DNA of 41,905 bases, taken from positions 1-41,905 of IMG/VR virus record IMGVR_UViG_3300036800_000197; one strand, 5' to 3'. The translations under genes were made by a program, and so were the position numbers. The DNA comes from a virus. Below are positions 30,678 through 39,148 of this stretch, piece by piece. Positions within the stretch are counted from its first letter, which is position 1. Every line of letters starts with the position of its first letter. The notes beneath the pieces were generated by a model. The model ran no database searches and had not been told where the DNA came from. It worked only from the letters and a program-made list of their open reading frames with translations.

Positions 30678-30955
30678 AACACCTGCGTCGGATAGGGCGT
30701 CCCGGCGAGGCACGTGCCGGCGCAGATCGCATCCCAGCTGACCGGATGGCCGGGCGGCATTGTCTCGCGATCGGTGCGCGCGATGGCGATGGGCGGCGCG
30801 TCGCCAATCAGCGCGTTGATATGGCGGCCGCGCTCGATGGCGGTCCAGCGCGAGCAGCCGAGGGCGCTGGCGATGGCCCTCCAGGAGGCGCGCTCGGTGC
30901 GCATACGGCGGATTGTCGCGTCGGTCTCCGGACGCCAGTGGATTTTGCGGGGCAT
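30674..30955 (-). CDS. HTH DNA-binding protein, GcrA/AsnC-like N-terminus
   Basis: 93 residues from ATG at 30955, which overlaps the ParB-like stop (TGATG). MPRKIHWRPETDATIRRMRT, then SWRAIASALGCSRWTAIERG, is an HTH like those of alphaproteobacterial phage regulators; the second half contains RETMPPGHPVSWDAICAG and TPYPTQVF, a conserved tail in such proteins. Probably a transcriptional regulator or DNA-binding accessory protein. Confidence 0.65.
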   Translation of the reverse strand: MPRKIHWRPETDATIRRMRTERASWRAIASALGCSRWTAIERGRHINALIGDAPPIAIARTDRETMPPGHPVSWDAICAGTCLAGTPYPTQVF

Positions 30956-31599
30956 CAGGCGAGTCGGGGTGCGGCCAGTTTGCGGAAGGCTTTGTTCACG
31001 GTCGGGAACTCGTATCCACACTCAGGACAGCACACCCTTTCACCGGATGCCTGGCCATGCTGCGCCTCGCTGTCCGCCCCAAACAGCGTGTCCAGTTCGG
31101 GACCATCGAAGCCGATCAGTCCAAGATCGAACCCCTCATCGCGGAGATCGCCCAACTCCATCCGGAGCAGCTCATCGTCCCAGCCCGCGTCCAGGGCCAG
31201 CCGATTGTCTGCCAGCACGTAGGCCCGCCGCTGCGCCGCTGACAGGTGCGACAGCTCGATCGAGGGCACCACGTCCATGCCGAGCTGCTGCGCCGCCAGG
31301 ACGCGCCCGTGGCCGGCCACGATGCCCTTCTTGCCGTCGGTCAGCACCGGGTTCGTGAAGCCGAACTCGGTGATCGAGGCGGCGATCTTCTTCAGCGACT
31401 CGGGGGAATGAGTACGAGCGTTCCGGGCGTAGGGAACGAGCTGGTTGGTCCGCACCAACTTGTAGGCGGGGAAGGGGTTGGCAACCGCCGGGGCAATGTC
31501 AGCCTCGCGCGCTACGGTCGCCTTATTCTTCGTTCCTGCAACTCTGCCGCCGGTTTTCTTGCCGAGCATTGGTCTACTTTCGTTGCTACTTGCTGGCAT
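30955..31599 (-). CDS. ParB-like nuclease domain protein
   Basis: 214 residues. Residues about 48-150 form a ParB/RepB/Spo0J N-terminal domain: LVRTNQLVPYARNARTHSPE, IAASITEFGFTNPVLTD, GIVAGHGRVLAAQQLGMDVV, PSIELSHLSAAQRRAYVLAD. The G-H-G-R box is the CTP/phosphate-binding motif of ParB-like proteins. The C-terminal 25 residues are a zinc ribbon half (CCPECGYEF). In phages such domains often stand alone or next to DNA methylases and are thought to bind DNA or act as nucleases. An alternative start is ATG at 31569. Partner ParA not present. Confidence 0.8.
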   Translation of the reverse strand: MPASSNESRPMLGKKTGGRVAGTKNKATVAREADIAPAVANPFPAYKLVRTNQLVPYARNARTHSPESLKKIAASITEFGFTNPVLTDGKKGIVAGHGRVLAAQQLGMDVVPSIELSHLSAAQRRAYVLADNRLALDAGWDDELLRMELGDLRDEGFDLGLIGFDGPELDTLFGADSEAQHGQASGERVCCPECGYEFPTVNKAFRKLAAPRLA

Positions 31600-33370: not shown

Positions 33371-34000
33371 TCAGATCGAAGCGACGGCGGCCTGCGATAC
33401 GGTGACCGAGACGGGCCGGCCGAGGATCTGCAGCAGCAGCTTGACCCTTCGTCCGTCCGACCATTCGCAGATCCCTTCGCGCCCCTCCATGCCGCCGCTC
33501 AACAGGCGCAGACAGGTGCCGGGGTCGATCGGGTTCATGTGCAAATGATTGGCCGGATAGGCGCAGTGATTGGGTTGAACGAGGCCGAACAAGAGGGCCA
33601 CTTTGTCATCGGCGATCGCACCGGGTCTGCCGCCGGGTGCGGTCATCAAACGGTCGACGCCATCGAGGTGCTCGATCTCGCCCCAGCTCGGATTGGCAAT
33701 ATTGAAACGCGTCAGGAAGTATCGCGGGAACATCGGCACGATGCGATCGGGCTTTGCCGGCCGGACCATACCGTTGCGATCACGGCGCATCGGTTCGGCG
33801 GGGCGAAAGACGCTCGGGTTGAAGACCTCGAAACCGGCGAGCCTGACCTCGATGTCGGCGCGCAGCTGTCCGTTGAAATCGGTGCGCACGCAATACCAGC
33901 GCATGATGTCGAGCACCGGCAGGCCGGTATTGCTGTGCCGCGCAACGCGGGGACGGCCAGCGCCGGGTCGGGCGCCTCCGTGAGAGAATTCCACGAACAT
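33371..34000 (-). CDS. NusG/RfaH-like transcription elongation factor
   Basis: 209 residues from ATG at 34000, chosen for GGGGGCGG upstream. After a basic GGARPGAGRPR segment comes an NGN-like domain: MRWYCVRTDFNGQL near 33-46, LAGFEVFNPSVF, then PMFPRYFLTRFNIAN and GVDRLMTAPGGRPGAIAD. The end (CLRLLSGGMEGREGICEW then LLLQILGRPVSVTVSQ) fits a KOW domain. NusG-type factors bind RNA polymerase and aid elongation or antitermination. In phage it may let polymerase read through the long leftward operon. Specialised paralogues such as RfaH act on defined ops sites, which I could not find here. Confidence 0.8.
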   Translation of the reverse strand: MFVEFSHGGARPGAGRPRVARHSNTGLPVLDIMRWYCVRTDFNGQLRADIEVRLAGFEVFNPSVFRPAEPMRRDRNGMVRPAKPDRIVPMFPRYFLTRFNIANPSWGEIEHLDGVDRLMTAPGGRPGAIADDKVALLFGLVQPNHCAYPANHLHMNPIDPGTCLRLLSGGMEGREGICEWSDGRRVKLLLQILGRPVSVTVSQAAVASI

Positions 34001-34275
34001 GGCGACCGCCCCCAGAATGGCACAGGCATACAGCCCATGCGTCGAGATGCCGGGGCCGGCCTCGCACTTGATTAAGCTGGACTGTCCCGCATGGCTGGCG
34101 CACGGCGCGAGCGAAAATGACTTTCGCGCATCCGGGAGGGGGGACCAAAGCATACGGGGTAATGTTCTGTCCATTGAAACATGTATGCCCCAAAAATGGC
34201 GTAATGTCCCATACGCAGCGCAAGAAGCGTGCCAAACAGCCTGAAAATGGGATAACTCGGTAGGACGGAGGCAAA
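34001..34275. promoter_or_regulatory. Divergent intergenic region with nested inverted repeats
   Basis: Between the leftward NusG-like gene and the rightward gene at 34276. A small hairpin lies at 34111-34127 (gcgaaa-atgac-tttcgc). GCATAC at 34150-34155 pairs with GTATGC at 34183-34188. A direct repeat GG(G/C)GTAATGTYC occurs at 34156-34167 and 34198-34209, 42 bases apart, and the second lies in a GCGTA-N8-TACGC inverted repeat (34199-34216). These look like operator elements for divergent promoters. Promoter hexamers are not clear. Confidence 0.45.
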
Positions 34276-36140: not shown

Positions 36141-36401
36141 CTACCAGAACGTCCCGGCGCGCGGCGCCGCCTCGCCCTCCGATACGATCAGATTGCGCAG
36201 CATCCGGAGCGACACTGCATCCAATGCGCGGCCGCCGGCGACGCATTCGCGGCAGGCCTCATCCAGCGCATCGGCCACGATCAGGTAGACGTCGGGAAGG
36301 AGATCATCGCGGGCGAGCAGCGCGGCGATCATCCGAAGCAGGGTCCGGTCGAGCGGGTCCCGCTCGATCAGCAGCGCCAGCCAGTGATCGGCGCTGCGCA
36401 T
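36141..36401 (-). CDS. Small helical protein, 86 aa
   Basis: ATG at 36401 shares a base with the initiator stop (TGATG). All-helical: HWLALLIERDPLDRTLLRMI, LPDVYLIVADALDEACRECV, LRMLRNLIVSE. Coupled to the initiator gene, which suggests a partner such as a helicase loader, but no motif supports that. Confidence 0.55.
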   Translation of the reverse strand: MRSADHWLALLIERDPLDRTLLRMIAALLARDDLLPDVYLIVADALDEACRECVAGGRALDAVSLRMLRNLIVSEGEAAPRAGTFW

Positions 36402-37840
36402 CAGCCGGTCCGGCAGACCACGCGATGGGCCTCGGGATATTCGCCCTTCCACCACGTATTGACCCGGGGACCATAATGTCCGGCCACCCAGTCGCCGACA
36501 AAGCCGGAGCGCAGGATCAGCACGATCTCGTCGCCGTCGAGGCCGCCCAGCTTCATGCCGCGCAGCCAGGATTGATACTCGGCCTCCGGCACCTCGGCCT
36601 TCAGCATGGCCCGGAACGCCGGCCAGCGGGCGACCAGGCGGGCATTGTCGGGGTCGTGCGGATGGATCAGCGCAACCGTCTCGGCGGGGTCCTCGGGCGG
36701 CTCGGGGACCGCAGGAGCCGTCGGCGCGAGAGGAGGCTGGAACGGCACCCGCGACGTCCATTCGCGCACGCGCTTGTCGAAGTAGCGCAGATCCGGCGCC
36801 AGCCGGGCGTTGGTCTGCTCCATCCGGGTGCCGATCGCCTCGCGGATTTCGTTGGCGGTCTTCGTCTCAAGCCATGAGCGAACGGCATTCAGTTCGGCAG
36901 GGGCAGCGAAACCGGCCCGGCCGACCAGGGGCAGCAGCTCGGCGGCCAGGGTGACGTGCAGCGGGGGTGACTCAGCGGGGGGTGACTCAGCGGGGGGTGA
37001 CTCAGAATTGGGTGACTCACAACTGGGTGACTCAGCTTTCGTCGGCTCGCGCGCGGTTACAGATTCACCACCACCACCACCAAGAAAGGATTCCGAATCC
37101 TTAGTGGTGGTGGTGGTACCTTCTCCGCCCGCGAGGGCCGAAACCTGAGTCGCCCCGGCCGTCTGAGTCACGTTTTGAGTCACCCCCTGAGTCACCCCAG
37201 GCTGAGTCAGGGGGGGGGGTGACTCAGCTTTGGGTGACTCAGAATTCGACGGGACGGCGTAGAGCATCTCGCGCTGATTTCCGTCCGGCGCCTTGCCCTG
37301 GCGCTGCGGCGGGGTGGCCCTGAGCCCGCCGGTGGTCTTGCCGCCGACCCGCTCGGGCAGACGCAGGCCGAGGTCGTCGGGCAGGGCGACGCCCCCCTCC
37401 TCGAGCCAGATCAGCAGATCACAGGCGATCAATTCCTTCAGGTCCGCCTCGCACCCGCCGGCACCCCGGGCCAGGTGATCGAGCGAACGACAGCGCGGGC
37501 TGAACAAGAGATCGCCGTCATCGCCGTTGAAGTGAATCTGCATGACCACGCTCAGCCAGAGCATTGTCGGGGCCAGGCCGAGCAGCCGGAAAATGTCGAG
37601 GTTACGGGTGACGGTCCAGGCGCGGGATATCATTGCCCGGTCGCCTAATTTGCGCCGGGGTTTGGCTGCCGGCGTCGTCGCGCTCTGGTTCGGCGCCCGC
37701 GCTTCTTCCCGCGCCAATCTCACATCACGGAGCACGGCGCCCCGCGAGGTGCCATCTGTTCTGGCAATACGGCCCGGCGATTCTCCCTGCTCCACCCGTT
37801 CGAGTCGGGCTTGCGCGCGCGTCTGGCGGGAAGCGGACAT
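36401..37840 (-). CDS. Replication initiator-like protein containing origin repeats
   Basis: 479 residues. A basic N-terminus (1-70), then RAWTVTRNLDIFRLLGLAPT to GVALPDDLGLR (about 72-160), compatible with a winged-helix unit that includes a FNGDDGDLLFS loop. Residues about 195-300 are low-complexity (Ser/Glu/Pro, Thr and Gly runs) where the DNA carries iterons and a hairpin. Residues 406-479 resemble the DnaA N-terminal domain: W-P-x-F...EYQSWLRGMKL ... ILRSGFVGDWVAGHYGPRV. Phage initiators of lambda O type carry their origin within the gene, as seems the case here. Downstream gene is coupled. No primase or helicase motif seen. Confidence 0.75.
   Translation of the reverse strand: MSASRQTRAQARLERVEQGESPGRIARTDGTSRGAVLRDVRLAREEARAPNQSATTPAAKPRRKLGDRAMISRAWTVTRNLDIFRLLGLAPTMLWLSVVMQIHFNGDDGDLLFSPRCRSLDHLARGAGGCEADLKELIACDLLIWLEEGGVALPDDLGLRLPERVGGKTTGGLRATPPQRQGKAPDGNQREMLYAVPSNSESPKAESPPPLTQPGVTQGVTQNVTQTAGATQVSALAGGEGTTTTTKDSESFLGGGGGESVTAREPTKAESPSCESPNSESPPAESPPAESPPLHVTLAAELLPLVGRAGFAAPAELNAVRSWLETKTANEIREAIGTRMEQTNARLAPDLRYFDKRVREWTSRVPFQPPLAPTAPAVPEPPEDPAETVALIHPHDPDNARLVARWPAFRAMLKAEVPEAEYQSWLRGMKLGGLDGDEIVLILRSGFVGDWVAGHYGPRVNTWWKGEYPEAHRVVCRTG
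36965..37241. repeat. Iteron array, candidate replication origin
   Basis: Decamer GGGTGACTCA occurs at 36965, 36980, 36995, 37010, 37025 (exact 15-base period), and again at 37217 and 37232. The reverse form TGAGTCACCC is exact at 37176 and 37188, with variants at 37146, 37164 and 37203. The core TGA(C/G)TCA is found 11 times, plus one variant. The array is split by the hairpin at 37068-37117. The encoded protein is low-complexity here, so DNA rather than protein appears constrained. Confidence 0.8.
37068..37117. other. Long hairpin inside iteron array
   Basis: Five CCA units (37068-37082) face four TGG units (37105-37116), and the centre AAGGATTC-C-GAATCCTT (37086-37102) is a 17-base perfect palindrome around one C. 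It encodes Thr and Gly runs in the initiator. Likely an origin element (strand opening or binding of an initiator dimer). Confidence 0.75.
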
Positions 37841-38229: not shown

Positions 38230-38408
38230 GGCCTGGCTCTTCGGGCGAACTGCCAATGCGTCTCGCCATCAGAGCGAGAATGGATAATTGCGCGAAGCTC
38301 AGGCGTGTCCGCGCCTTGTAACTCGGTAATCTGCTCGCCGCGTTCATCACAAACCGCGATCAGGCCGTTCGAGAAAACCAGAACCGAGCGGGCCAAAGGT
38401 TCGCTCAT
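38226..38408 (-). CDS. Small protein, 60 aa
   Basis: ATG at 38408 overlaps the GcrA-like stop (ATGA); the stop overlaps the next start. Two strands (SVLVFSNGLIAVCDERGE) and a helix (ADTPELRAIIHS), ending in Arg/Ala. Unknown. Confidence 0.6.
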   Translation of the reverse strand: MSEPLARSVLVFSNGLIAVCDERGEQITELQGADTPELRAIIHSRSDGETHWQFARRARP

Positions 38409-39148
38409 GCCCGTGCCTCCCTTCGCACAGCCGCTGGCATTCGGACGTAGGCCTTGCTGGCATGGACATGGCAGTACGGCCGGCCAGGGTCGGATGGTTT
38501 GTCGCAGAAGTGGAACGCCGGTTTGCCGGGCTCGCCGATCGGCCAGCAGCAGCTGACCACGCGGCCAAAGACAGGTGGCGGCGGGACGTAGGGCGCTGGC
38601 CTGGGGGCGGGTGGCGGGGCGAGCGGCCGATCGAGCGCGATGGGAACGGATCGTCTGGGCCTCGGCTCGGGCCGCGGCCGGCCTTTGGCGGCGGCCTGGC
38701 GATCGCGGTAATCCCGCTGAGCCTTCTGCAGGCGCATCTGTTTCGCTTCGGCGCTCTGGTCGGGGTGTGGTCGTCGGGGTCCACGCGCCCGGACGGCAAT
38801 GAGGCCCTTGGCGATCAGCCGATGCGACTTGCCGATCCCGGCCGACCTGGTGATCCCCATGCGCCGGGAAATCTCGCCGACCGAATGATCCTCGTTCCAC
38901 AGCAAGATGAACTGCGTTTCCCGATCGGCGGCCCATTGGCTGGGAAGCATCCTGATCAGCCCGCTCTGCAACAATCGTTTGACGATCTTGCTGGTATTCC
39001 AGGCCGACTGGCCGAGCTGCGCCGCGATCTGTTCGGTCGATTGGCCATCGCAACGCGCCTGCCAAACCCCAAACAGGCGCTCGATGGGCCACGACCGGGA
39101 GGCCAGCGCCGCCAGGCGCTCATGGACCTCGGCCGCCGAGAGCCTCAC
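38405..39148 (-). CDS. GcrA-family regulator
   Basis: 247 residues from GTG at 39148. Two HTH-like segments: QSTEQIAAQLGQSAWNTSKI (about 36-55) and HSVGEISRRMGITRSAGIGK (about 88-107), the latter like GcrA's A-x-x-L-G-x-x-x-R-x-A-V-I-G-K-x-H-R-L. A Pro/Arg linker leads to a C-terminal CCWPIGEPGKPAFHFCDKPS then RPYCHVHASKAY, which is the sigma-70-binding GcrA C-terminal domain (C-x-W-P-x-G, F-C, Y-C-x-x-H-x-x-x-A-Y). Cellular GcrA activates methylated GANTC promoters in Alphaproteobacteria. The phage copy could redirect host sigma-70. Confidence 0.8.
   Translation of the reverse strand: MRLSAAEVHERLAALASRSWPIERLFGVWQARCDGQSTEQIAAQLGQSAWNTSKIVKRLLQSGLIRMLPSQWAADRETQFILLWNEDHSVGEISRRMGITRSAGIGKSHRLIAKGLIAVRARGPRRPHPDQSAEAKQMRLQKAQRDYRDRQAAAKGRPRPEPRPRRSVPIALDRPLAPPPAPRPAPYVPPPPVFGRVVSCCWPIGEPGKPAFHFCDKPSDPGRPYCHVHASKAYVRMPAAVRREARA

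Follow-up and report, generated by a model that had tools for sequence, protein, structure and literature searches.

A putative phage initiator gene carrying an internal two-orientation repeat array, a probable lambda-O-like replication origin, and a C-terminal DnaA domain I

The phage DNA analysed here (the window) is a complete virus record of 41,905 bp and 63.5% GC, and in the middle of one of its genes, a putative replication initiator gene, it carries a dense array of twelve short repeats in both orientations, interrupted by a hairpin. The repeat pattern is selected at the level of the DNA, the encoded protein ends in a DnaA domain I that retains the residues known for DnaB contact, and the same layout occurs in a distant relative with a different repeat. 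By far the best reading is that the array is the replication origin of the phage, lying within its own initiator gene as in lambda O, to which we assign a probability of about 80%; that the protein binds the repeats, that the DNA melts and replication starts there, and that the helicase is recruited are what we infer from these features. What sets this probable origin apart from that of lambda is a repeat of another sequence and a C-terminal part of the protein that derives, most likely, from the bacterial initiator DnaA.

The motif TGASTCA occurs 13 times in the window, whereas dinucleotide shuffles of the whole sequence average 2.7 and never exceed 6, and 11 of the 13 lie at 36968-37241 (274 bp), inside the gene at 36401-37840; these are the eleven cores that a previous reading of the sequence alone had listed, and every one is present. 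Seven belong to plus-strand copies of GGGTGACTCA in exact 15-base steps, which fall, as that reading had described, into a block of five (block 1, 36965..37034, plus strand; copies at 36965, 36980, 36995, 37010 and 37025) and a block of two (block 3, 37217..37241, plus strand; copies at 37217 and 37232). Block 2 (37146..37209, minus strand) comprises five inverted copies at 12- to 18-bp steps. The 12-base spacing reported for inverted copies is seen for the cores at 37164, 37176 and 37188, another inverted core follows at 37203, and a degenerate copy at 37146 (TGAGTCG, minus orientation), absent from the earlier description, is the twelfth. Seven copies thus face the plus and five the minus direction, and their oriented consensus is GGGTGACTCAG, in which GACTCA is invariant (n=12), the T is present in 11 of 12 copies, the three preceding G's in 10-11 and the following G in 10. 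No 8-mer of the window clusters more strongly than GTGACTCA, which has 10 copies within 300 bp.

The gene reads the plus copies in one frame, as ESP, and the minus copies in another, as ATQ, VTQ or LTQ. A peptide repeat would not yield the same 10-mer in both orientations, and we therefore conclude that it is the DNA, not the peptide, that has been kept. When the protein was held fixed, 20,000 synonymous resamplings gave at most 3 TGASTCA cores under phage codon usage and at most 5 under within-gene shuffling, versus the 11 observed, and rare codons are concentrated in the array (TCA for 7 of 15 Ser, ACT for 6 of 13 Thr). The claim that the DNA pattern drives the protein is well founded on these grounds, with two orientations and two frames giving different peptides; the accompanying claim, that the protein is of low complexity only here, was slightly overstated, since simple sequence occurs as well in a Pro/Ala/Glu linker, at residues about 372-400.

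Between the iteron blocks lies a hairpin (37040..37140) with a CACCACC...GGTGGTG stem and a AAGGATTCCGAATCCTT tip, which includes a large part of the DNA that is lowest in GC locally. Folded as DNA, this segment reaches -32.4 kcal/mol versus -14.9 +/- 2.5 for shuffles (z -7.0), and the 17-base palindrome previously noticed in it can be placed at about 37085-37101 as AAGGATTC-C-GAATCCTT, of odd length and with an unpaired centre. The lowest-GC 100 bp of the gene begin at 37004 (4th percentile of the window). An AT-rich unwinding tract was sought beside the iterons; only a relative GC minimum was seen (47.5% over 40 bp, at the centre of the array), and no pronounced AT-rich element was seen flanking the array. 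GC skew computed across the whole window does not turn there.

The gene (36401..37840, minus strand) encodes a protein of 479 aa, P0001, which begins with a helix-turn-helix and ends in a DnaA domain I; between them come a middle region that matched no family, the linker that bears the repeats and another helical segment. That the product is a replication initiator is supported, although not proven, by its two ends. The helix-turn-helix (residues 1-51; 37688..37840, minus strand), a candidate DNA-binding domain, is predicted by AlphaFold2 as three helices with a pLDDT of about 94-96 over residues 11-40, in a single-sequence model whose mean pLDDT is 48 and which is trustworthy for residues 1-50 only. 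Neither Pfam nor PHROGs placed the N-terminus in Phage_rep_O, HTH_36 or DnaD: the Pfam search of P0001 matched DnaA_N only, with no match to Phage_rep_O (PF04492), HTH_36, DnaD_N or DnaB_2. The stretch YFDKRVREW resembles, by eye, the YxxxIxxxW motif of DnaD-type proteins. At the other end, the resemblance to the DnaA N-terminal domain is supported. Residues 406-465 (36446..36625, minus strand), a candidate helicase-recruiting domain, match PF11638 (DnaA_N) with an E-value of 2.8e-13 and 49.8 bits against a cut-off of 24.6, and the equivalents of W6, E21 and F46 are kept in an alignment to E. coli DnaA domain I (2e0g, which P0001 itself matches at E 0.08 by single-sequence search). We know of no species other than E. 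coli in which contact between DnaA domain I and the helicase has been demonstrated, and it is for this reason that recruitment of DnaB by P0001 is something we infer. In E. coli, W6, E21 and F46 have roles in dimerisation and DnaB contact (PMC5448010). The full-length DnaA model (TIGR00362) reached 21.6 bits against a cut-off of 343.9, over residues 406-474 only, and a scan of the neighbouring ORFs turned up no helicase loader gene of lambda P or DnaC type.

The analogy with lambda O is apt. Lambda O has four annotated iterons mid-gene, in the linker between its N- and C-terminal domains, and lambdoid origins are located mid-O (PMC7466680); the repeats of the P0001 gene likewise lie between its domains. 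The two systems differ in that lambda has four 18-bp direct iterons, an AT-rich tract, a Phage_rep_O N-terminal domain and a separate P protein, whereas the array here has twelve 11-bp repeats pointing both ways around a central hairpin, with no strong AT tract seen, and the protein ends in DnaA domain I. Phage-specific repeats also lie inside the O-like genes of Salmonella g341c, Morganella IME1369_01 and Pseudomonas MD8, with another repeat sequence, fewer copies and another protein family, and in MD8 they were taken as support for the function of the gene (PMC8508860). That no described match is known, as the sequence-only reading put it, accordingly holds for the repeat sequence but not for repeats inside phage O-type genes in general (PMC7466680, PMC8508860). 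With DnaA, P0001 shares domain I and the three residue equivalents, but it is without the AAA+ and DnaA-box-binding domains and carries domain I at the C-terminus instead of the N-terminus.

We hypothesize that the N-terminal helix-turn-helix, perhaps together with the following domain, would bind the 11-bp repeats, that blocks 1 to 3, arranged about the hairpin, would nucleate a compact initiator-DNA complex, and that the central hairpin region would then open. DnaA domain I, displayed many times on this complex, might directly recruit the host DnaB helicase and so do the work that a separate loader, P, does in lambda. If this is true, a transplanted DnaA domain I replaces the helicase-recruiting step of the lambda O/P pair in a phage initiator, and the origin consists of a dense two-orientation array with a hairpin, not of four direct iterons with an AT tract.

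Matches to head closure, portal and terminase proteins, together with an encoded tyrosine recombinase (integrase), point to a temperate phage whose structural genes are P22-like. One structural protein is related to Acetobacter phage phiAX1, and this relationship and a GcrA-domain protein suggest an alphaproteobacterial host. The GcrA-like gene (38405..39148, minus strand; PF07750, E 4.4e-17), a candidate methylation-linked regulator, lies upstream of the initiator gene in the same orientation. GcrA homologs are already known from phages, for example phiCbK (PMC7987155); the fusion of an N-terminal MarR-like helix-turn-helix to the GcrA domain, as encoded here, may be less usual. A NusG-domain protein (33371-34174, minus strand; 7.9e-8) adjoins the integrase and is a candidate phage antiterminator (PHROG 6386). 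No relatives of the GcrA-like and portal proteins were found in the viral contigs searched.

Searches of phages, plasmids, viral contigs and 385 sampled genomes of the class gave no close homolog of P0001. The genome matches that were checked are chromosomal dnaA, and two phage matches are dnaA genes in metagenome scaffolds; neither set was retained as homologs. The records MT838018.1 and MT835859.1 (L280 and L281), deposited as 'Bacteriophage sp.', carry chromosomal-type dnaA and are probably misassigned bacterial scaffolds. A portal search of the 385 genomes revealed two distant prophages, G237:C9 and G340:C3 (30% identity). In G237:C9, which is alphaproteobacterial, the densest 8-mer array lies inside an initiator-like gene (L325:13846-15201; HTH_36 match of 2.8e-4, weak and under the Pfam cut-off), where six AAGGGTGCAGC-type repeats at L325:14680-14790 point both ways and fall in each of the three frames (p 0.001, synonymous null); this array is a probable intragenic origin. 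The gene has in common with ours a winged-helix N-terminus, a repeat linker read in both orientations and several frames, and a related portal in the same prophage. It differs in its repeat, which is without GANTC, in having no detectable sequence similarity to P0001, and in a C-terminus whose resemblance to DnaA_N is visual only and not found by Pfam. Repeats played no part in the choice of this prophage, and we therefore count it as an independent instance of the layout, built on another repeat. The expectation that related initiators keep the repeats is thus borne out as to the layout and the intragenic array, in one distant relative, but not as to the repeat itself. Dense arrays were also looked for in the G340:C3 prophage and in Acetobacter phage phiAX1 and Pseudomonas phage PAE2, which are related by structural protein, and none was seen.

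A C-terminal DnaA_N recurs in accessory initiator-like alphaproteobacterial proteins (L295, L306, L297, L299, L300, L302, L309 and L311), which supports a view of DnaA_N as a reusable module; the genes for these proteins show no significant array in a crude 8-mer test. Lambda O itself is not significant in that test (p 0.21, three exact copies), so its power is low and little weight attaches to its negative results. A p of 0.05 was reached by 5 of 46 control genes, and several relatives of lambda O score in it. L302 and L309, two nearly identical genes of initiator-like type, lie on separate contigs of the same alphaproteobacterial genome and have a VTSVTVGSVT linker beside the C-terminal DnaA_N, with repeats that are visible by eye and not significant in the 8-mer test.

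Other explanations of the array were weighed against an origin. It seems quite unlikely that ESP and VTQ repeats simply grew by slippage, or were selected as peptide, with no function in the DNA: 15-bp tandem steps are typical of slippage, and many unrelated genes carry coding repeats with a 15-bp TGACTCA spacing, but such growth does not explain an identical 10-mer in both orientations and two frames, a core count that synonymous nulls do not reproduce, rare TCA and ACT codons concentrated in the array, or a strong hairpin between the repeat blocks. We consider it more improbable still that the array is another kind of phage site, a partition centromere or a regulatory operator cluster, that chances to lie in an initiator gene. 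Lambda O and the G237:C9 relative likewise have their repeats within a gene of initiator type, and the integrase of this phage indicates an integrating lifestyle; a ParB_N-like domain in the protein of 30955-31599 (minus strand; E 1e-4, below the Pfam cut-off) speaks for partition, but its gene is 5 kb away.

GANTC, the CcrM site, is contained in TGASTCA, so that every such repeat brings one by construction. Fifteen of the 79 GANTC sites of the window fall within 280 bp, their largest cluster, with three of them in the hairpin and outside the repeats, while in 447 kb of other alphaproteobacterial DNA no 300-bp stretch exceeds 8. The cluster lies near the GcrA-type regulator gene, and in Caulobacter GcrA binding is enhanced by, or depends on, GANTC methylation (PMC3667746). 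At V. cholerae oriII, an RctB-dependent origin whose initiator-binding sites involve adenine methylation, full methylation aids initiator binding (PMC2865523); there the site is Dam GATC, not GANTC, and a role for methylation here is only a candidate. Host CcrM might methylate the twelve repeat sites and the three in the hairpin, and the upstream GcrA-like protein might read them, either to control transcription or to gate the origin by the cell cycle, but we think this unlikely. GACTC is invariant in all copies, as such a switch would have it, but conservation reaches beyond GANTC, over GGG...AG, and TGASTCA arrays also occur in actinobacterial-looking phage genes, where CcrM is not expected. 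The repeat of G237:C9 is without GANTC, and the GANTC density may therefore be a by-product of the repeat sequence. We are equally doubtful of a version in which the array would be the CcrM equivalent of iterons whose use depends on methylation: initiator binding or re-initiation would need host CcrM methylation, and the phage GcrA-like protein would link the replication of the phage with the alphaproteobacterial cell cycle. Given the GANTC content, a CcrM/GcrA cell-cycle link can be tested directly.

Returning to the array as an intragenic origin, a scan of viral contigs for three copies of GTGACTCA gave 35 loci, of which about nine are initiator-like genes (L176, L182, L183, L184, L185, L192, L194, L200 and perhaps L177; five by Pfam, several by eye). 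A control 8-mer with the same letters in reverse order, ACTCAGTG, recovered about five initiator genes among 19 loci (L264, L265, L266, L269 and L274; some by eye). Given this similar rate, we reject TGASTCA as a conserved phage origin motif; initiator-gene repeat arrays are general and phage-specific, and TGASTCA is no special shared motif among them. If the origin reading is right, origins of uncultured phages may be found by a simple test, in which initiator genes are screened for short repeats that come back in a second orientation or frame more often than a synonymous null allows. Repeats of TGACTCA at 15 bp in bacterial genomes were likewise discarded as relatives, as no P0001 homolog is among them and most look like in-phase coding repeats. 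GTGASTCA repeats are shared by some members of one actinophage family (relatives of L176, e.g. L211 and L213), most members being without them; L206, L211 and L213 are actinophage-like initiator genes with these repeats in the linker. On another viral contig, five copies of GTGACTCAGGTG at exact 12-bp steps (L201:2987-3043) lie outside any ORF of at least 60 aa.
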